Part shown: piece by piece, positions 26,344-35,982 of the stretch | Layout: each line of letters begins with the position of its first letter | Numbering within the stretch: the first letter of the stretch is position 1 | Assembly (NCBI RefSeq): GCF_006715785.1 | Contig: NZ_VFNX01000001.1 | Location: 372,001-436,000, forward strand | From: Streptomyces puniciscabiei | GTDB taxonomy: Bacteria; Actinomycetota; Actinomycetes; Streptomycetales; Streptomycetaceae | Direction of reading: 5' to 3' | DNA length: 64,000 bases | Notes under the pieces: generated by a model | What the model saw: the letters and a program-made list of their open reading frames with translations, nothing else | Told to the model about the DNA's origin: nothing | The model's database searches: none | Program-made: the position numbers and the translations under genes

Positions 26344-27797
26344 CAGACACCTCGTGATGTCTCATTCGCGTTGGCACCGTTCACCCAGGTCACGACTGGT
26401 CCTTCGTGCGTGCGGCTGAGGCTTGCCCGGTGTCTGCGCCGGCGCTGACGTGCCGCTGGGTCTCCTGGGGGCCGTGCCAGTCCAGGCAGACGGCGGTGGC
26501 ATCGTCTTCGAGCCGGCCGTCGGCGGCGTCCCGGACCGCGGACGTCAGCGCCAGCGCGGTCTCCCTCGGGTGCAGATTCCGGGTGCGCGCCAGCAGGGCG
26601 GGCAGATCGACCTTCTCTCCGTGACGTTCGAGCATGCCGTCGGTGAACATGAGCAGACGGTCACCGGGCCGCAGGTCGAGGTCCTGCACACGGTACGGGT
26701 GGGGAGTCAGCTCAGACAGCCCGAAGGGATGGTCCACCTCGCAGGCAATCGTCTCCACAGCCCCGTCGCGCATGCGCAGCGGCCAGGGATGACCGGCGTT
26801 GACGAACTGGGCCCGCCCGGTATGGAGATTGATGCGCAGGAGCTGCCCGGTGGCATGACCGTGGCCGTGTTCGATCAGTGCCTGGTCTGCCCGGTGGGCC
26901 TGTTCGCCCAGGCCGGTGCCCGCCCGGCGGGCACCGCGCAGGGCGCCCACCAGGACCGTGGCGGCCAGGGCGGAATCCATGTCGTGGCCCATGGGATCGG
27001 TCACCGACACGTGCAAGGTGTCGCGGTCCACGGTGTAGTCGAAGGTGTCGCCGCTGAGGTCCTCGGAGGGCTCCAGGTTCCCGCACAGGGTGAACTGTGC
27101 GGCCTCGCACGACAGCGACAGGGGCAGCAGCTGGTACTGGATTTCAGCCGCCAGGGTGGCCGGCTTGGACCGTTTGCCCCAGGTGTAGAGATCGGTGAAG
27201 CGGCCGTTGGCGATCACGATGTAGGCCAGGATGTGGGCGGCTTCCCCGACTGCGTCGAGCACGTCCTCGCCAGGGCCGGTCGGCAGGAGCAGTTCCAGCA
27301 GCCCGATCGCATCCCCGCGGTTGGTGACGGGCACGATCACCCGCTGCCCCTCGCCGGTCGCGTCCTGATACAGGCGCTGGGTACGGATCACCTCCTCGTA
27401 GACACTGCCGAGCAGGGGAACCCGCTCGGCCTGCCGCCCACCCTGAGTGGGAGCGGTGGACAGCCGAGCCACCGCCTTCCCTGTCAGGTCCACGATGAGG
27501 AAAGAGACCTTGGTGGCCTCGAAACGCCGCCGCAGGTCCTCCGCGATCACGTCGACGGCGTCCGCCGGCGCCGCTCTCTCCGCTGCTGTCAGCAATCGGG
27601 TGAGCCCACTTTGTCCACCGCTCACGACCGCAGTCCCTTCCGCACCCCCCCACCAGCTTGGTAATAGCCGCAGTGAGCGTCAATCCGTGAACAGTCACGC
27701 TCCGGCGTTCGCCCGCGGACGGGGCCGCCACGGCTGCTCTGTACAAAAGCGGCTCGACGGGCCCATGTCTTAGGAGACACGCCAGAGTCTGGATAAC
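26339..27797. other. Possible insertion carrying a phosphatase gene, with imperfect inverted ends
   Basis: This 1.46-kb stretch separates the two halves of the DNA ligase pseudogene. Its ends resemble each other in inverted orientation: TTCTCCAGAC then GTCTC at 26339-26363, and the complement TTATCCAGAC then GTCTC at 27796-27774. The only gene inside is the SpoIIE-type phosphatase. No transposase is present, so if mobile it would depend on another element. Chance similarity is not excluded. Confidence 0.35.
26390..27625 (-). CDS. SpoIIE-type PP2C phosphatase with N-terminal GAF-like sensor
   Basis: A 411-residue cytosolic serine phosphatase of the RsbU/SpoIIE group, which dephosphorylates anti-sigma-factor antagonists. 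Residues 15-165 look like a GAF sensor ([28 protein letters not shown]); the PP2C part follows with [38 protein letters not shown] and [11 protein letters not shown]. The metal-site motif DPMGHD is an atypical version of DGMGHG. It is a paralog of the gene at 34073 with the same domain order. GTG 27625 is the start; the rest of the insertion up to 27790 holds no other gene. Confidence 0.85.
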
Positions 27798-29193: not shown

Positions 29194-29562
29194 TCATGCC
29201 GCGTCGCGCCAGGCGGCGATACCGGTCACCGTGACCGCGACGGTGACCGGCTCCGCGGCACCGTGGGTGGCGAGGTGGGTGACGAGGGCGGCTGTCACCC
29301 GGTCGTGGACGTTTCGGGCGATGTCCAGCGCCCGCCGACCCTCCGTCAGGACGCAGCGCACCTCGATGTGCCATCCCGAACCGTCCGGCGCCCGGTCGGC
29401 GCGTACGCCGGCCTCAGGTGGCGTGGTGTCCGCCCGGGTGGGCGCGGCGGCTGCCGCGAGGCGCCGCGCGAGGCGGGGTTGCAGGGCGGCCACGCCAGGA
29501 ACCGCGAGGGCTGCCTCGGCCGCGACGCCGAGGAGCGCGGTGGTGCCGGTGGCGGTCATCAT
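29194..29562 (-). CDS. Asp23/Gls24-like small protein
   Basis: A 122-residue protein with the alternating beta pattern of Asp23/Gls24: AAEAALAVPGVAALQPRLARR at the N-terminus, WHIEVRCVLTEG in the middle and EPVTVAVTVTGIAAW at the end. Asp23 proteins are membrane-associated envelope-stress factors held by AmaP. ATG 29562 overlaps the stop of the upstream anti-sigma fusion (ATGA). It ends the minus-strand arm of the divergent stress cluster. Confidence 0.7.
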   Translation of the reverse strand: MMTATGTTALLGVAAEAALAVPGVAALQPRLARRLAAAAAPTRADTTPPEAGVRADRAPDGSGWHIEVRCVLTEGRRALDIARNVHDRVTAALVTHLATHGAAEPVTVAVTVTGIAAWRDAA

Positions 29563-30230
29563 GCGCCACCGCCCGTCGGGAGGCGGGGACCGAGGGTCGG
29601 TCCCGGTTCCAGTACGTCGGCCACGGTGATGTCGACGGCTGTCACCGTGAGCCCCAGGTCCTGTCCGGCCGAGTGGAGGACCGATCGGCGTACCTGGTGG
29701 ACCCGGTCGGGCAGCGGGCGGTCGAGGGCGGCGGCCAGGGTCATGGTCACCCGCACGTCGGTGCCGTTGCCCTCGGGTACGAGCCGGCAGGTCGCGGCCC
29801 TGGCACCGGGGACCGTGTCCGCGGCCCGCCTCAGCACCTTCGCCGCGGCGCTCTCGGCGATCCGCAGGTCCCGGTCGGGGTCGGCCAGGGGCAGCAGCCG
29901 CCCGAATCGGACCTCTGCCCTGACGACGTCCATGACCCGGTCGGCGAGTGCGTGCAGGCCCGGAGGGTCCTCGTCGCGCAGCGCCCGGGCGGCCGCGTTC
30001 ACCGTGGCCAGTCCCTCGACCGCCTCTCGGCAGTATGGACAGGACACCGGGTGCGGGTCCGCGGCCGGCGGTGCGTCCCGTGCCTGTTCCCAGACCCGGC
30101 TGAGCAGGCGGCCGCAGGGCAGTACCTCATCGCCTGCGATCGGGGGCACGTCGGCGGCGGCCCAGCCGTTGCGGGGCCCGCCGGCTCCGGGCGGTTCGGG
30201 AGGCCGCGTGTGCGGGTCGTCTAGCGCCAT
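29559..30230 (-). CDS. Zinc-binding anti-sigma factor fused to an Asp23-like domain
   Basis: A 223-residue protein. Residues 55-70 hold PHPVSCPYC, an HxxxCxxC zinc motif of ZAS anti-sigma factors, set in a helical region. The C-terminal 110 residues form an Asp23-like domain (RVTMTLAAALDRPLPDRVHQ, then VTAVDITVADV). It lacks a membrane helix. The gene overlaps the ECF sigma gene by 10 bp, the usual partner arrangement, so it most likely binds and silences that sigma factor. Joining an anti-sigma module to the structural domain of the target operon suggests that it senses Asp23 assembly, which is inference. ATG 30230. Confidence 0.75.
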   Translation of the reverse strand: MALDDPHTRPPEPPGAGGPRNGWAAADVPPIAGDEVLPCGRLLSRVWEQARDAPPAADPHPVSCPYCREAVEGLATVNAAARALRDEDPPGLHALADRVMDVVRAEVRFGRLLPLADPDRDLRIAESAAAKVLRRAADTVPGARAATCRLVPEGNGTDVRVTMTLAAALDRPLPDRVHQVRRSVLHSAGQDLGLTVTAVDITVADVLEPGPTLGPRLPTGGGA

Positions 30231-30796
30231 GGGCCCATCGCCTCCTGCAGGGATCGGCGTGCCCTGAACAGTCTGCCGCGTACCGTCTGCTCGCCGGTAC
30301 GCGTCACGTGCGCGATCTCCTTGTAGGGCAGGCCCTGCACCTCCCTCAGGATCCAGCAGACCCGCTGTCCGGCGTCCAGCTCGGCGAGTGCGCGGAACAG
30401 GGCGGCCGTGGCCGCGTCCTGCTCGGCGGTCCGGGCGGGCTGGCTCCACGCGTCGCCCGCCGCGGGTTCGGCGACGGCGTCCAGGGGGAGGGGCGGCGGC
30501 CGGCGGCGGCACATGGTCTGGCAGCGGTTGACGGTGATCCGGTACATCCAGGTGCGGAACTCCGCCCTGTGGCGGTATTCCGGCAGGTGGCGCCAGGCGC
30601 TGATGAAGGCGTCCTGAACGGCCTCCTCGGCGTCCTGGGGGTTGCCCAGCATGCAGCGGGCCAGGGTCAGGAGGGAGCGGCTGTGCCGCTGGACGAGAAC
30701 GGCGAAGGAGTCCTCGTCCCCCTCGGCCGCCCGTACCGCCAGCAGGCGGTCGGGCAGGTCGCACCCCAGTCGTGGGGAAGCAGTGCGTTCGATCAT
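30221..30796 (-). CDS. ECF-type RNA polymerase sigma factor
   Basis: A 191-residue extracytoplasmic-function sigma factor. Region 2: DSFAVLVQRHSRSLLTLARC, GNPQDAEEAVQDAFISAWRH and FRTWMYRITVNRCQ. Region 4: LAELDAGQRVCWILREVQGL, then YKEIAHVTRTGEQTVRGRLFRARRSL. ATG 30796 gives the family length. It probably reads the divergent Asp23 operon or its own promoter. Upstream is a sigma-B-like promoter (GCGT-N15-GGGTAC), indicating control by the general stress sigma factor. Confidence 0.92.
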   Translation of the reverse strand: MIERTASPRLGCDLPDRLLAVRAAEGDEDSFAVLVQRHSRSLLTLARCMLGNPQDAEEAVQDAFISAWRHLPEYRHRAEFRTWMYRITVNRCQTMCRRRPPPLPLDAVAEPAAGDAWSQPARTAEQDAATAALFRALAELDAGQRVCWILREVQGLPYKEIAHVTRTGEQTVRGRLFRARRSLQEAMGPWR

Positions 30797-30826
30797 GACG
30801 CTCCCACGCAGGCTCGGAACGAGCGT

Positions 30827-30851
30827 GTACCCCTGATACGAGTTGTGACGC
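30827..30851 (-). promoter_or_regulatory. Sigma-B-type promoter for the ECF sigma gene
   Basis: On the minus strand GCGT (30851-30848) is followed after 15 nt by GGGTAC (30832-30827), fitting the S. coelicolor sigma-B consensus GNNT-N14-16-GGGTAY that I recall. It ends 31 nt upstream of the ECF start codon. On the plus strand, GGAAC at 30816-30820 could be an ECF -35 element for the opposite operon, but its -10 partner is unclear. Confidence 0.5.
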
Positions 30852-30859
30852 ACATCACA
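30844..30859. promoter_or_regulatory. Crp-type palindrome TGTGA-N6-TCACA
   Basis: TGTGACGCACATCACA is a perfect match to the CRP-family consensus TGTGA-N6-TCACA. It lies midway in the 153-bp divergent region of the Asp23 cluster and overlaps the -35 element of the sigma-B-type promoter, so a bound Crp/Fnr-type protein could affect both operons. Confidence 0.5.
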
Positions 30860-30949
30860 TGCCAGACGCGTGAGGATTGTGCCGCCCGGTATGTCCAACG
30901 TTCGACGGGCGCCATTCCGGTGTCCGGCCGACCGATCGAGGCGACCGCC

Positions 30950-31447
30950 ATGACGGACAACATCACCAGCGTCGGCGGGGGCAGCCGGCCCGAAGCGGGC
31001 GTGAGCGCGCTCAAGGGCCGCACCGGGGCCGGGGCTCCGGCCGAGACACGGGGCAGGACCACCATCGCGGACGGTGTGGTGGCCAAGATCGCGGGCATGG
31101 CCGCCCGCGAGGTACCGGGCATCTACAACCTGGGCGCCGGCATGGCCCGCGCCTTCGGAGCCATGCGGGAACGCGTCCCCGGCGCAGGCGGAGGCGGAGG
31201 CGGAGCGGTCACCCGCGGCGTCAAGGTCGAGGTCGGGGAACGCCAGGCCGCGGTGGACCTGGACGTCGTCGTCGAGTACGGCGTCTCCATCGTCGACGTC
31301 GCGGGCGGCGTACGCACCAACGTCATCAGCGCCGTGGAGCGGATGACGGGCCTGGAGGTCGTCGAGGTGAACATCGCCGTCGACGACGTCCACCTGCCCG
31401 ACGACGAGGAGGAACAGACCGGACCGGACGAGGGCCGCGTGAGATGA
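30950..31447 (+). CDS. Asp23/Gls24 family envelope stress protein
   Basis: A 165-residue cytoplasmic, membrane-associated protein. The Asp23 core is clear: GRTTIADGVVAKIAGMAARE, then VPGIYNLG, VTRGVKVEVGERQAAVDLDV, VVEYGVSIVDVAGGVRTNVI and MTGLEVVEVNIAVDDVHLPD. The N-terminal 40 residues are disordered and Gly-rich. ATG 30950 is the first start consistent with the family. It leads a six-gene plus-strand operon; the next gene begins 84 bp on. Confidence 0.92.
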   Translation: MTDNITSVGGGSRPEAGVSALKGRTGAGAPAETRGRTTIADGVVAKIAGMAAREVPGIYNLGAGMARAFGAMRERVPGAGGGGGGAVTRGVKVEVGERQAAVDLDVVVEYGVSIVDVAGGVRTNVISAVERMTGLEVVEVNIAVDDVHLPDDEEEQTGPDEGRVR

Positions 31448-31531
31448 CCGCTGCCGGGAGCACCGCCGTGTCCTCGGGCCCGAGCGGATGATCACGGCGA
31501 GAGAGACGCTCGCGAGACGGGTGAGTGCGAG

Positions 31532-31699
31532 ATGAACACAGCAACGACGGGACTCGCGGCCGGCATGGCCCTCGGCTTCGCCGGCTACTTCGGCGGCTTC
31601 TGGGCGTTTCTGCTGGTGCTGGTCCTGGGTGCGGCGGGGCTGATCGTCGGCCTCGTCGTACAGGGCGACCTCGACCTCCGGACACGGAGGCAGCGGTGA
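31532..31699 (+). CDS. DUF2273-like small membrane protein
   Basis: A 55-residue protein with one or two membrane helices (AGMALGFAGYFGGFWAFLLV, then LVLGAAGLIVGLVVQ) and a short Arg-rich tail. Its size, Gly-rich helices and place between two Asp23 genes match DUF2273 peptides of Asp23/AmaP operons. ATG 31532 lies behind a weak ribosome site; the stop overlaps the next GTG start (GTGA). Confidence 0.7.
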   Translation: MNTATTGLAAGMALGFAGYFGGFWAFLLVLVLGAAGLIVGLVVQGDLDLRTRRQR

Positions 31700-32103
31700 A
31701 GACCCGGCCCGGTTCCCCCGGTGAGGGGTCGGGCCCGCCGGCACCGGCCGCCGGGCTGCCGCCCCCGGCCGAGCGGGGCGCCACCGTCATCCCGGACAGG
31801 GTGGTCGCCCGTATCGCCGCGCAGGCCGCGCGCGCGGCGCAGGCGCGGCGCGCCGCGGTACCGCCCGATCGGGGCGGACCTGCGGCACCCCAAGCCTCCG
31901 CCGCCGTCCGTACCGGATCGGTGCGCCTGCATCTGACCATGGACCTGCCCTACCCCACCGACATCCCCCGTGTCTGCGAGCGGATCCAGCGGGACGTCGC
32001 CGAACGGGTCGCCCAGCTGACCGGGCTGCGGGTGGGAGAGGTCCTTCTCACCGTCCGGCGGCTGGTGACCGCCGCCGATGCGGGCCGGGGGCGGGTCCGG
32101 TGA
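31696..32103 (+). CDS. Second Asp23/Gls24-like protein
   Basis: A 135-residue protein starting at GTG 31696, overlapping the previous stop by 4 bp. A Pro/Ala-rich N-terminus is followed by IPDRVVARIAAQAARAAQ and a C-terminal Asp23 half: GSVRLHLTMDLPYPTDIPRV, CERIQRDVAERVAQLTGLRV, GEVLLTVRRL. The first Asp23 beta-strand pair appears shortened. It may form mixed Asp23 assemblies with the protein at 30950. Confidence 0.75.
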   Translation: MKTRPGSPGEGSGPPAPAAGLPPPAERGATVIPDRVVARIAAQAARAAQARRAAVPPDRGGPAAPQASAAVRTGSVRLHLTMDLPYPTDIPRVCERIQRDVAERVAQLTGLRVGEVLLTVRRLVTAADAGRGRVR

Positions 32104-32155
32104 GCGGCCGGGCGGCCCGGGTCACCGGGCACGCCGTGCAGGAAGGGCGATCGTG

Positions 32156-32842
32156 ATGACATCCGGTCCACATCCCCCGGGCCGCGGCTCCGCGTCGTCC
32201 GGGCACCGTGCCGCAGTGCCGCTGACGAAGGAGCCCGATCCTCCCGAACGCGACGTGTCCCCCTCGGACCTCACAGCCGGTGAGCACGAAGGAGGGCACC
32301 GAACCCGTCGCAAGTGGTCGGCGCGCAGCGTCACGGCGGCGCTGGTCGCCGCGGTGATCCTCGTGGCCGCGGTCGCGACGCTCGTCGACGTCGTCGCCGT
32401 ACGGGCGGGACGTCCGGCCACGGCCTGGCGACGGCACCTGGCCGACGAACTGGCGACCCGCCCGGTGGACGACGTATGGATGCTGACGGGGGCCGCCGTG
32501 GCCGCCGCCGTCGGCGTCTGGCTGATCGTCCTGGCCCTCACCCCCGGTCAGCGACGCTGGCTGCCCCTGCGCTCACCCGCCGGCTGCCCGCGACTGCGGG
32601 CCTTCGTGGACCGCAACAGCGCCGCCGTCCTGTTGCGCGACGCCGCCATGCGGGTCCCCGGAGTCGGCGCGGCGCACGTCCTGGTGGGCCGCCACCGCAT
32701 CAAAGCCCGCGCGGACGTCCGCTTCCGAGACCCCCGACAGGTGAAGGACGACCTCACCGCCGTCCTCGACGAGGAGCGCGACCGGCTTGCCCTCGCCCGT
32801 CCTCCCCGCATCGCCGTACGGACGCGGCGACGCACCCGCTGA
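32156..32842 (+). CDS. DUF6286 family membrane protein
   Basis: A 228-residue protein with a disordered charged N-terminus, two membrane helices (SVTAALVAAVILVAAVATLV and WMLTGAAVAAAVGVWLIVLAL) and a C-terminal soluble domain with LLRDAAMRVPGVGAAHVLVG and KARADVRFRDPRQVKDDL. This is the layout of Streptomyces DUF6286 proteins, which I know to sit in Asp23 operons and which resemble AmaP. ATG 32156 follows GGAAGG. Confidence 0.8.
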   Translation: MTSGPHPPGRGSASSGHRAAVPLTKEPDPPERDVSPSDLTAGEHEGGHRTRRKWSARSVTAALVAAVILVAAVATLVDVVAVRAGRPATAWRRHLADELATRPVDDVWMLTGAAVAAAVGVWLIVLALTPGQRRWLPLRSPAGCPRLRAFVDRNSAAVLLRDAAMRVPGVGAAHVLVGRHRIKARADVRFRDPRQVKDDLTAVLDEERDRLALARPPRIAVRTRRRTR

Positions 32843-32870
32843 CACAAGACCCGCAGCACCGGAGCCCGCC

Positions 32871-33479
32871 ATGACGCCGCGATCCGCTCTCAACCGCACC
32901 CTGCTGGCCCTCGCCGGGCTGGTCCTCCTCGGCGGCGGACTGCTCATCCTCTTCGCCGGGCTCGACCTCTACAGGCGGCACGATCTGGCCCCGCCCGCCG
33001 GCTGGCCCCTGACCACCCCGGCCGACGTCCTGCTCGGCTCCGCCGACCGGGCCCGCTGGAGCAGCCAGGGCTGGTGGTGGTGGCCCGCGGTCATCGCCGC
33101 CCTCGTCCTCACCGCCCTCCTCGCCCTGTGGTGGCTGCTCGCCCAGCTGAGCCGACACCGCCCCGGCTCCCTGCCCGTCGGCGGCATACCCCCGCAGGAA
33201 GGCGTCGAACTGCGCGACCGCGCACTCAGCGAAGCGATCGCGAACGAAGCCGGTGCCCTGCCAGGGGTAGGCCATGCGGCCGTAGTCATCACCGGCCGAC
33301 CGGCCCGCCACCGCACCCGCATCGACCTCACCCTCACCCCCGAGGGCACGCCCGGCGCCACTCTCGGTGCCCTGTGCGAAGGCCCGATCGGCACCGCGCG
33401 TCGGTCCACCGGCCTCACCGACATGCCAACCGAGGTCCGCCTACAGGTCAGCCGCCACGGACCACACCGCGTGGAGTGA
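32871..33479 (+). CDS. AmaP-like membrane anchor of the Asp23 operon
   Basis: A 202-residue protein with two membrane helices (TLLALAGLVLLGGGLLILFAG and WWWWPAVIAALVLTALLALW) and a C-terminal soluble domain containing ALSEAIANEAGALPGVGHAA and RHRTRIDLTLTPEGTPGATL. Its topology matches AmaP, the anchor that holds Asp23 at the membrane. ATG 32871 lies 29 bp after the DUF6286 stop. The last part reads LTDMPTEVRLQVSRHGPHRVE. Confidence 0.8.
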   Translation: MTPRSALNRTLLALAGLVLLGGGLLILFAGLDLYRRHDLAPPAGWPLTTPADVLLGSADRARWSSQGWWWWPAVIAALVLTALLALWWLLAQLSRHRPGSLPVGGIPPQEGVELRDRALSEAIANEAGALPGVGHAAVVITGRPARHRTRIDLTLTPEGTPGATLGALCEGPIGTARRSTGLTDMPTEVRLQVSRHGPHRVE

Positions 33480-33564
33480 GGAGGAGATCGGCCGTTCCCG
33501 CCGACGCCCTTGCGGCCCATAGCAGTTCGCGGGCGCGCCGGCACCACTCCCCGAAGGAGAGATC

Positions 33565-33720
33565 ATGATCATCCTGGGCGTCATTCTGCTCGTCGTCGGC
33601 TTCCTCACCGGCCTGTCCATCCTGTGGACCATCGGGATCATCCTGCTGGTCGTGGGAGCCATCCTGTGGATCCTCGGCGCGATGGGACACGCCGTCGCCG
33701 GTCGACGCCACTACTGGTAG
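33565..33720 (+). CDS. DUF6131 family small membrane protein
   Basis: A 51-residue protein of two closely spaced hydrophobic helices (MIILGVILLVVGFLTGLSIL and WTIGIILLVVGAILWILGA) and a short tail ending GRRHYW. I recognise this as the small DUF6131 family of actinobacteria, function unknown. ATG 33565 has GAAGGAGA at ideal spacing. It closes the Asp23 operon. Confidence 0.85.
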   Translation: MIILGVILLVVGFLTGLSILWTIGIILLVVGAILWILGAMGHAVAGRRHYW

Positions 33721-34072: not shown

Positions 34073-35314
34073 ATGACGGGCGGTGAGGGGCAAGGACCCG
34101 CGGAAGGCTCCACCCGGTCGGAGCGCTTCGGGGAGGAGTTTCTGGGAATCCTGCTGGACCAGGGGCACGAGCTGCCGCCGCACCAGCTCGGTCCGCTCGT
34201 CGCACGGCAGATCGGCAGGCTCGACGGCCGCGAGACCTCGCTCTTCCTGCAGGACTACGGCCAGGTGTGGCTCGTCCCCCTGCCGGGCGACGGGCTGGCA
34301 GCCGGGGAACCGCAGCCGATCGACGGCTCCGATGCCGGTCGTGCCTTCCAGGAGGCGCGTCCCGTCGAGGTGCCGCAGGCCGGCGGTGTACGGGTCTATA
34401 TGCCCCTGCTGGACGGTGGCGACCAGGTGGGCGTCCTGGCCGTCACCCTGGACCGCGTCCACGACGACGAGCGACGGCTGCTGCGCAGGCTCGCCTCGCT
34501 CGTGGCCGACATGCTGGTGACCAAGCACGGTTACACCGATCTGTTCTTCCGGCTGCGCCGCAGAGAACCGATGAGTGTGGCGGCGGAGATCCAGTGGTCG
34601 CTGCTGCCACCGCTGGCGATGTCCACGCCCCGGGTCGAGCTGGCCGGGATGCTGGAACCCGCCTACGACGTGGCCGGCGACAGCTTCGACTACGCCCTCA
34701 ACGGCGATGTCCTGCATGTGGCCATGGTCGACGCGATGGGCCACGGACTGGACGCCGCCACGATGGCCACGGTGGTCATCGGAGCCTACCGGCATGCCCG
34801 GCGCATCAGCGTCGGCCTGTCGGAGATCTATACGTTCATGGACCGGGCCGTCGCCGATCAGTTCGGCCCCGACCACTTCGTGACCGCTCAGATGATGCGG
34901 CTCAACACGGCAACGGGCAGGCTTCAGTGGGTCAACGCCGGACATCCCGCTCCTCTGTTGATCCGTGGACACCGTGTCGTACGACGGCTGCAGGGCCCGA
35001 CGACGCTGCCCGTCGGCTTCGGCGGTCACGAGCCCCGGATCAGTGAAGTGGCTCTCATCCCCGGCGACCGGATCCTGTGCTTCACCGACGGACTGATAGA
35101 GGAGCGCGATGTCGGCGGTGAGGAATTCAGTGAGGAGCAGCTCATCGGGTGGGTGAACCGCCTTGAGCCCACGGCCCAACAGATCCGGACGGTGGCGCGC
35201 TCCCTCTCCCACACGCTGCAACGGGCGCGGGGCGGGATCACGACGGACGATGCGACGCTCCTGCTGATCGAATGGCGCGGGAGCGCCACCGACGACCTCG
35301 CCCTCCCGGAGTGA
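34073..35314 (+). CDS. SpoIIE-type PP2C phosphatase with N-terminal GAF-like sensor
   Basis: A 413-residue RsbU/SpoIIE-type serine phosphatase. The first 160 residues form a GAF-like domain (LFLQDYGQVWLVPLP, RVYMPLLDGGDQVGVLAVTL); the catalytic domain has AGDSFDYALNGDVLHVAMVD, AMGHGLDAATMATV, NAGHPAPLL, ILCFTDGLIEERDVGG and TTDDATLLLIEW, with the metal-site Asp residues intact. It should dephosphorylate a STAS antagonist and release a stress sigma factor. It resembles the phosphatase at 26390 across its whole length. The codon before the start gives only a weak ribosome site (CGGCGATG). Confidence 0.87.
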   Translation: MTGGEGQGPAEGSTRSERFGEEFLGILLDQGHELPPHQLGPLVARQIGRLDGRETSLFLQDYGQVWLVPLPGDGLAAGEPQPIDGSDAGRAFQEARPVEVPQAGGVRVYMPLLDGGDQVGVLAVTLDRVHDDERRLLRRLASLVADMLVTKHGYTDLFFRLRRREPMSVAAEIQWSLLPPLAMSTPRVELAGMLEPAYDVAGDSFDYALNGDVLHVAMVDAMGHGLDAATMATVVIGAYRHARRISVGLSEIYTFMDRAVADQFGPDHFVTAQMMRLNTATGRLQWVNAGHPAPLLIRGHRVVRRLQGPTTLPVGFGGHEPRISEVALIPGDRILCFTDGLIEERDVGGEEFSEEQLIGWVNRLEPTAQQIRTVARSLSHTLQRARGGITTDDATLLLIEWRGSATDDLALPE

Positions 35315-35376: not shown

Positions 35377-35982
35377 TCACACTCCTGCTGCCGCGGTGGG
35401 CACGTGACGGGTGACCGGTCCGTCAGGAGTGCGTGAGGCGGGGTGGGGGGCGTCGTGTCCGCCTTCGGAGTCCCAGACCGCCTCCCGGAGCGAGTCCGAG
35501 TCGGCCGCTGCCTCTGCCGCGGCCCGGAAACGTTCGGCCTCATGGATCAGGCCGGTCGCCGTGAGGCTCCGCGACGGGTCGGTGGCCGTGGCCATGAGCC
35601 GGGCCGCGGTGGCCGGGGCTGTCTCCGGTGGGATCACCAGCAGGTCCCAGCGGCCGAAGGTGTGGGACAGCAGCAACAGCTTGTGGGGGTCCTGCCCGGC
35701 GTTGGACCAGCCGACGCGCACCATGTGGCCGTGCGCGGGCACTTCACCCGGGATGACCGGCCACAACGTGCGGCTCACCGCTATCCGGGTGATCCGCCCC
35801 CACAGCGGGTCGAGACATTCGACGAGCGCCGGGAGCTCCTCCGTCAGGTTGCGCGAACGGGGCCACCAGGCACCGTCGATCAGGGCCGGAGGGGCGCCGG
35901 CCCGCGCCAGCGTGAGTCGGAGCGGTGACGAAGAAGGGGCCCGGTCTCCGACTGCGGGTGTGAACGGAATGGTCGCGGTCAT
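35377..35982 (-). CDS. DUF5994 family protein, paralog 1
   Basis: A 201-residue soluble protein with the DUF5994 signature IDGAWWPRSRNL, LWGRITRIAVSRTLWPVIPG, and a C-terminal HKLLLLSHTFGRWDLLVIPP. The function of the family is unknown; it is common in Streptomyces and often near stress genes. ATG 35982 overlaps the stop of a 35-codon leader frame (ATGA), so translation is probably coupled. It converges with the phosphatase at 34073. Confidence 0.85.
   Translation of the reverse strand: MTATIPFTPAVGDRAPSSSPLRLTLARAGAPPALIDGAWWPRSRNLTEELPALVECLDPLWGRITRIAVSRTLWPVIPGEVPAHGHMVRVGWSNAGQDPHKLLLLSHTFGRWDLLVIPPETAPATAARLMATATDPSRSLTATGLIHEAERFRAAAEAAADSDSLREAVWDSEGGHDAPHPASRTPDGPVTRHVPTAAAGV

Follow-up and report, generated by a model that had tools for sequence, protein, structure and literature searches.

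A putative anti-sigma factor with an Asp23/DUF6286-like domain beside a divergent Asp23 operon in Streptomyces puniciscabiei

Why would a predicted anti-sigma factor carry the same fold as the proteins encoded by the operon on the opposite strand? This question is raised by a 64,000-nucleotide stretch of the 9.15 Mb genome of Streptomyces puniciscabiei (assembly GCF_006715785.1, contig NZ_VFNX01000001.1, positions 372,001 to 436,000), referred to here as the window, whose numbering is used throughout. A reading-frame check of positions 29194–33720 showed nine open genes that diverge from an intergenic gap of 153 bases (30797–30949). On the minus strand, the gene of an extracytoplasmic function (ECF) sigma factor of 191 residues with regions 2 and 4 (30221–30796; Pfam Sigma70_r2, 66.5 bits, and r4_2, 43.6 bits, both above cut-off) is followed by the gene of a 223-residue protein (29559–30230; 10-base overlap), and this by the gene of a 122-residue protein (29194–29562; 4-base overlap). 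On the plus strand, the order is Asp23A, a DUF2273-like gene, Asp23B, DUF6286, an AmaP-like gene and DUF6131. The original prediction described nine genes packed with overlaps around this gap; the nine genes and the gap were found, and overlaps are limited to three of the seven same-strand junctions (10, 4 and 4 bases), the other four having gaps of 28–85 bases. Family calls for the window proteins were made with Pfam and NCBIfam profiles and their family bit-score cut-offs. With moderate confidence, we propose that the locus encodes an ECF sigma/anti-sigma switch that works locally in the cytoplasm and is devoted to an Asp23–AmaP-type envelope module.

The two halves of the 223-residue protein and their link to the sigma gene

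The first half of the 223-residue protein (about residues 31–93) resembles a zinc-binding anti-sigma (ZAS) domain. The HPVSCPYC motif is present and conserved, and the arrangement C-x20-H-x3-C-x2-C provides C39, H60, C64 and C67 as the predicted ligands, all of which are kept in 129 of 134 fusion proteins, the window included. When a profile of 45 ZAS halves was compared with PDB sequences, the top match was 3hug_B (E 7.4e-5), which we take to be the RslA chain of an anti-sigma/sigma complex of Mycobacterium tuberculosis, RslA with part of SigL; 2m0d, an unrelated zinc finger (E 0.0034), ranked second and the anti-sigma factor DdvA (8rlz, E 0.033) third. With a profile of the whole protein, the leading match was a zinc finger (E 0.0096), followed by 3hug_B (E 0.061). 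No zinc anti-sigma family of Pfam was matched by the 45 ZAS halves at E ≤ 0.1. The fold assigned to this half is based on the helices of the AlphaFold 2 (AF2) model together with the sequence, and the fold search with the whole model lists the C-terminal half only.

The C-terminal half contains an Asp23/DUF6286-like domain (about residues 118–207), with the order alpha-beta-beta-alpha-beta in the AF2 model of the protein alone. Its scores lie under both Pfam cut-offs (DUF6286, PF19803, 16.6 bits against 35; Asp23, PF03780, 14.4 against 28), and because the Asp23 cut-off was missed we use the term Asp23/DUF6286-like and do not call the protein a member of the Asp23 family. Compared with the profile of Asp23A (30950–31447, plus strand), the canonical Asp23 protein that opens the divergent operon (PF03780, 98.7 bits, cut-off 28), this half gave an hhalign probability of 92 (E 6.1e-7), and a profile of 18 fusions retrieved Asp23 proteins, including, at three fusion loci, the Asp23A encoded on the opposite strand (E 1.1e-8, 1.4e-7 and 1.3e-6). 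Among 111 relatives, 82 match DUF6286 and 42 match Asp23 at E ≤ 0.01; judged by profile, the domain is nearer to DUF6286 than to Asp23. The AF2 models of the C-terminal half and of Asp23A show an equal order of strands and helices and share their best PDB matches (VIA-align, each model matched separately), while Foldseek with the Asp23A model returned no match at E ≤ 0.001. These best matches are cation-efflux C-terminal domains (MamM), with the EscJ ring-building domains lower down, and we read them as a shared fold and not as a metal function. As modelled, the C-terminal half shares the fold of a genuine Asp23 protein. Both the union of an anti-sigma motif with an Asp23-like domain in one protein and the likeness of that domain to the Asp23 protein of the opposite operon, as originally predicted, are thus borne out by the profiles and the models. 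A second architecture was seen in a distant actinobacterium (L061, G459:C88), in which the domain fused to the ZAS half is a canonical Asp23 domain; translations place an ECF gene upstream of this fusion and DUF2273 and Asp23 genes downstream.

The link between this protein and the sigma gene was followed in several sets of loci, which share some genomes. The 223-residue protein had 401 relatives at E ≤ 0.001 among 8000 candidates scored; its named close relatives are from Streptomyces, and 121 of 199 genomes of the window's genus matched it at E ≤ 1e-5, many through the C-terminal half only. An ECF gene was located upstream in each of the best 30 loci (window included), in both L037 and L038, in 38 of 40 further fetched loci, and in 79 of 80 loci from named genomes, where Asp23A was inside the examined flank in 76 loci; the single exception in this last set (L101) begins 156 bases from the end of its contig. 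At the class level, the ECF gene was found in 24 of 27 loci, one of which (L172) was matched only from residue 77, and the three loci without it (L186–L188) are sigma-less Streptomyces loci. In the two exceptions among the fetched loci (L231 and L244), the match begins no earlier than residue 97, and all five loci without an ECF gene (L186–L188, L231 and L244) match the C-terminal half only. Every examined locus with a ZAS half and an available upstream side had an ECF gene there, and in 30 of 30 loci the stop of the sigma gene overlapped the next start by 4 or 10 bases, taking the start nearest to the sigma stop. The placement of the fusion directly behind an ECF gene, already noted in the original prediction, is constant in these loci, and no ZAS-type fusion shown to lack an ECF neighbour appeared among them. 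In some sister loci (L067, L069, L071, L074 and others), about 2.7–3 kb of other DNA separates the sigma gene from Asp23A.

The genome of S. puniciscabiei also has a second module that lacks the sigma gene (L034, G000:C1, near 5,542,000) and has a similar divergent layout. In this module, a single 244-residue protein combines relatives of two separate window proteins, the putative anti-sigma factor in its C-terminal half (hhalign family E 6.9e-23) and the 122-residue protein (E 2.5e-11). None of the 28 sigma-less loci had an ECF match or an HxxxCxxC/ZAS half. This bears on a different explanation, in which the 223-residue protein is no anti-sigma factor but a building block or helper of the Asp23 assembly, its gene simply accompanying the ECF gene. 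Such a role would agree with the lack of a Pfam zinc anti-sigma match and with the zinc finger at rank 2 of the ZAS profile, the anti-sigma role being assigned from sequence; it is opposed by the top and third matches of the same profile, by the overlap of the two genes in 30 of 30 loci, and by the absence of the ZAS half wherever the sigma gene is absent. We give it hardly any credence, and consider that the 223-residue protein is very probably the anti-sigma factor of the adjoining ECF sigma factor.

The 122-residue protein scored 21.7 bits for Asp23, below the cut-off of 28, and gave an hhalign probability of 85 with Asp23A (E 5.7e-6). The fusion of both minus-strand domains in the sigma-less paralogues suggests that the two also pair in the window, and the 122-residue protein is a likely partner of the 223-residue protein.

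A promoter motif at the Asp23 operon

Ahead of the sigma gene, the sister loci (type 2) have a promoter motif whose two consensus elements, CGCGTAACG and GTGTCCAA, are separated by a spacer of 14 or 15. A position weight matrix (PWM) was built from 66 sites in the regions upstream of the sigma gene in type 2 loci only, so that 66 of the 80 type 2 loci have the site by construction; other regions were scored against shuffles with a 99% threshold. The best match in the window is at 30867–30898 on the plus strand (GTGAG ... TGTCCAA), ahead of the Asp23 operon, with a score of 13.4 against a threshold of 7.9. Upstream of Asp23A in type 2 loci, 68 of 77 regions were above the threshold on the coding strand; on the opposite strand, which may contain the divergent sigma promoter, 34 of 77 were above it. 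In window-type loci, the corresponding values were 12 of 20 and 0 of 20, and all 20 best matches are positioned 81–88 bases ahead of the Asp23A start. The motif was absent by PWM upstream of Asp23A in the 28 sigma-less loci (0/28), and in L039 and L040, from another family, it was found ahead of both genes. Since the motif of the sigma factor recurs at the operon promoter, control of the divergent Asp23 operon by this sigma factor is highly likely.

A strict form of the window pattern matched the genome of S. puniciscabiei once (reversed control, 0), and a looser form seven times, six of them elsewhere (reversed control, 0). In 12 further genomes, a strict sister-type pattern was matched 9 times, in 7 of the genomes; 6 of these matches fall at the sigma locus, and the control gave 1. 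The single strict match in the genome of S. puniciscabiei suggests a narrow, local set of targets. Autoregulation of the sigma gene was also considered; it was rejected for the window's clade, given that none of 20 upstream regions has the motif, and was kept for the sister loci.

The intergenic gap of the window also contains a perfect CRP-like palindrome, TGTGA-N6-TCACA (30844–30859), a possible site of a second regulator, presumably linked to Crp; in 10 of 20 window-type loci, GTGA-N6-TCAC recurs in almost the same position. This recurrence, and a sigma gene that is devoid of the sigma motif in window-type loci, would fit a control exerted through amounts only, in which under-expression or degradation of the anti-sigma factor frees the sigma factor, another regulator acting at the CRP-like site sets the timing, and the Asp23-like domain is a dimerisation relic. 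We regard this alternative as quite improbable, considering that the Asp23-like domain includes positions conserved at 90% or more across the 134 fusions and that the overlap of the sigma and anti-sigma genes couples their amounts.

A quick tree of 99 Asp23A proteins placed the 28 sigma-less loci as one group beside the window's clade, nested within sigma-linked loci. An approximately unbiased (AU) test did not reject a grouping of the 44 type-1 and type-2 rows on one side (p 0.15). A late gain or a late loss of the sigma gene is unsupported, as the AU test does not reject alternatives to the nested tree.

Cys148 and the proposed switch

Within the Asp23-like domain, 129 of 134 sigma-linked proteins have Cys148, whereas all 28 sigma-less ones have Leu or, in one protein, Val at this position; by alignment, this residue is diagnostic of the sigma-linked proteins. 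C39, H60, C64, C67 and C148 are jointly kept in 127 of the 134 fusions, and 109 of the 134 have exactly four cysteines. Five fusions do not have C148: L176, L184 and L185, which also lack H60, and L178 and L182, which keep the four ZAS ligands and have Val at 148. The first three belong, together with L045, to a family (f8) in which the ZAS histidine is replaced by Asp, Arg or Ser. Apart from the exceptions noted, the ZAS half, the sigma gene, the promoter motif and Cys148 are present or absent together in the loci compared.

This pattern makes a thiol or zinc switch the main rival of the proposal advanced above. In such a switch, oxidation or metal loss at C39, H60, C64 and C67 would open the ZAS half and release the sigma factor, Cys148 would be an extra reactive or ligand residue, and the Asp23-like domain would serve mainly as a scaffold. 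The joint conservation of the five residues, the Leu or Val at 148 in all sigma-less proteins, and the constant number of cysteines in most fusions favour it. In some ZAS domains zinc may have a purely structural role, which weighs against it, as do the two fusions with four intact ligands and Val at 148, and a target operon that is an envelope module and not a thiol-repair set. On the other side, ZAS anti-sigma factors that respond to oxidation are known, as reported in the available text of a 2022 review (PMC8999054). On balance, we consider this switch unlikely.

We favour instead a switch that includes the Asp23 module itself. The sigma gene, the ZAS protein and the Asp23 operon are supported as one unit by gene order and motif. 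The domain, the gene order and the coupling of the two genes suggest that the ZAS half of the 223-residue protein would hold the sigma factor, which, once freed, would use the motif at 30867–30898 to start transcription of the divergent Asp23 operon. The Asp23/DUF6286-like half would be the sensor, its most likely partners being the 122-residue protein and subunits of the Asp23/AmaP assembly, and the state of the membrane assembly may govern the ability of the ZAS half to hold the sigma factor. That the signal is sensed by contact with the assembly is a tentative proposal, somewhat short of an even chance. If incorporation into the assembly frees the sigma factor, the direction suggested in the original prediction, the result would be positive feedback; if instead the protein releases it once the assembly is lost, the result would be a repair loop. 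As the sigma gene of the window's clade has no motif, the loop would be closed through the products of the Asp23 operon and not by self-activation. In a stronger version, the anti-sigma factor would be a subunit of a membrane-bound Asp23/AmaP polymer, docking and undocking of its domain with the 122-residue partner would switch the ZAS half, and Cys148 would couple the two halves. We hold this version to be doubtful; were it true, the assembly state of an envelope scaffold would be read directly as transcription.

Several results weigh against the favoured switch. Co-variation between the sigma factor and the anti-sigma factor showed no excess in the ZAS half, with 29 of the top 100 pairs against 30 expected (35.6 of 100 under random pairing, standard deviation 4.6, 20 shuffles); this analysis, which is uninformative as to contact between the two, used 156 paired sequences from at most 173 loci, with identical and gappy rows dropped and an effective number of sequences of 91.5. 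A thiol or metal switch would account for the conserved Cys148 at least equally well. As for the promoters, those of the Asp23 operon in 8 of 20 window-type loci do not reach the PWM threshold, the motif upstream of the sigma gene was seen in sister loci only (0/20 in window-type loci), and most other families do not have the motif by PWM. The two minus-strand Asp23-like domains resemble each other weakly (profile probability 12). In addition, the AU test did not reject a single clade of the 62 sigma-linked rows without L061 (p 0.596), a tree with a higher likelihood than the nested one.

Remaining genes and comparison with known systems

Downstream of Asp23A, the operon continues with a small DUF2273-like membrane protein (31532–31699, plus strand; PF10031, 15.4 bits, below the cut-off of 25.4), whose gene is found in a matching position in many sister loci, and with the second Asp23 protein, Asp23B (31696–32103, plus; PF03780, 34.2 bits). 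These are followed by a DUF6286 protein (32153–32842, plus; PF19803, 96 bits, cut-off 35), in which hydrophobic stretches precede the domain, and by a protein named AmaP-like because it missed the cut-off of NF033218 (32871–33479, plus; 37.6 bits, under 55). The last gene encodes a small DUF6131 membrane protein (33565–33720, plus; PF19626, 42.5 bits, cut-off 25). In 80 sister loci, tblastn gave no match to it at E ≤ 1e-3, with a weak query of 51 residues and some operon ends incomplete. The original prediction had the sigma factor control an Asp23–AmaP–DUF6131 module; the shared promoter motif at the Asp23 operon agrees with that control, and the membership of DUF6131 is doubtful.

SpoIIE-type phosphatase genes are present on both flanks, at 26390–27625 (minus strand, 129 bits) and at 34073–35314 (plus strand, 146.5 bits), the latter also encoding a GAF domain and adjoined by a DUF5994 gene (35377–35982, minus strand, 124.4 bits).

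Asp23 proteins are tied to envelope stress, and we know of no account of how their amount is set in actinobacteria. The Asp23–AmaP system of Staphylococcus aureus is under SigB control, a difference from the window, and to our knowledge has no linked ECF pair; the likeness is that Asp23 and its membrane anchor are encoded in one operon. According to the available part of PMC6954212, S. aureus Asp23 forms filaments and is tethered at the membrane by AmaP, and that of PMC9769785 reports that an Asp23 gene of S. venezuelae is downregulated after ethanol shock.

The available text of PMC8999054 describes two ECF groups, ECF286 (Streptomyces rimosus) and ECF292 (Mycolicibacterium cosmeticum), that adjoin soluble Asp23-family predicted anti-sigma factors of unknown mechanism, citing for them the classification of Casas-Pastor et al. 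(2021). The pairing of an ECF gene with an Asp23-family protein was therefore already predicted and is not new. The likeness to the window was judged by description only and lies in the ECF gene beside a soluble Asp23-family predicted anti-sigma factor; the feature given for ECF286, a soluble-looking Asp23-like neighbour, is found in the window and its sister loci. In that text, both groups are listed apart from the ZAS-regulated ECF270 and ECF271, and no promoter or target is given for them. We found no description of a ZAS–Asp23 fusion in the literature searched, of which the sources were available in part, and Casas-Pastor et al. (2021) may describe one. Beyond that literature, the present analysis adds that the Asp23-like protein also has a ZAS half, a target promoter, a counterpart without the sigma gene, the 122-residue protein as a likely partner, and Cys148 as a diagnostic residue.

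The sigma-less module L034 of the same genome shares with the window the divergent layout and the order Asp23–DUF2273–Asp23–DUF6286–AmaP. It differs in having no ECF gene, ZAS half, motif or Cys148, and in the fusion of both minus-strand Asp23-like domains. The locus thus presents a concrete circuit, with a dedicated sigma factor, its predicted holder, one clear target promoter, and a sigma-less copy as a natural control. Its organisation suggests that the state of the scaffold may feed back on its own production, and if the sensor domain indeed docks into the assembly, the circuit would act as a homeostat responding to polymer assembly.

Among solved structures, RslA/SigL of M. tuberculosis (3hug) is the best match of the ZAS profile. 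It was deposited as a probable membrane protein, a difference from the window, and we know of no Asp23-like domain in RslA. In its predicted plan, the window protein resembles ChrR, the partner of RpoE in Rhodobacter sphaeroides, a soluble two-domain anti-sigma factor with an N-terminal ZAS domain and a C-terminal sensor (PMC8999054, available text). The C-terminal domain of ChrR is cupin-like in the same source, whereas that of the window protein is Asp23/DUF6286-like, and its predicted target operon encodes that same fold.

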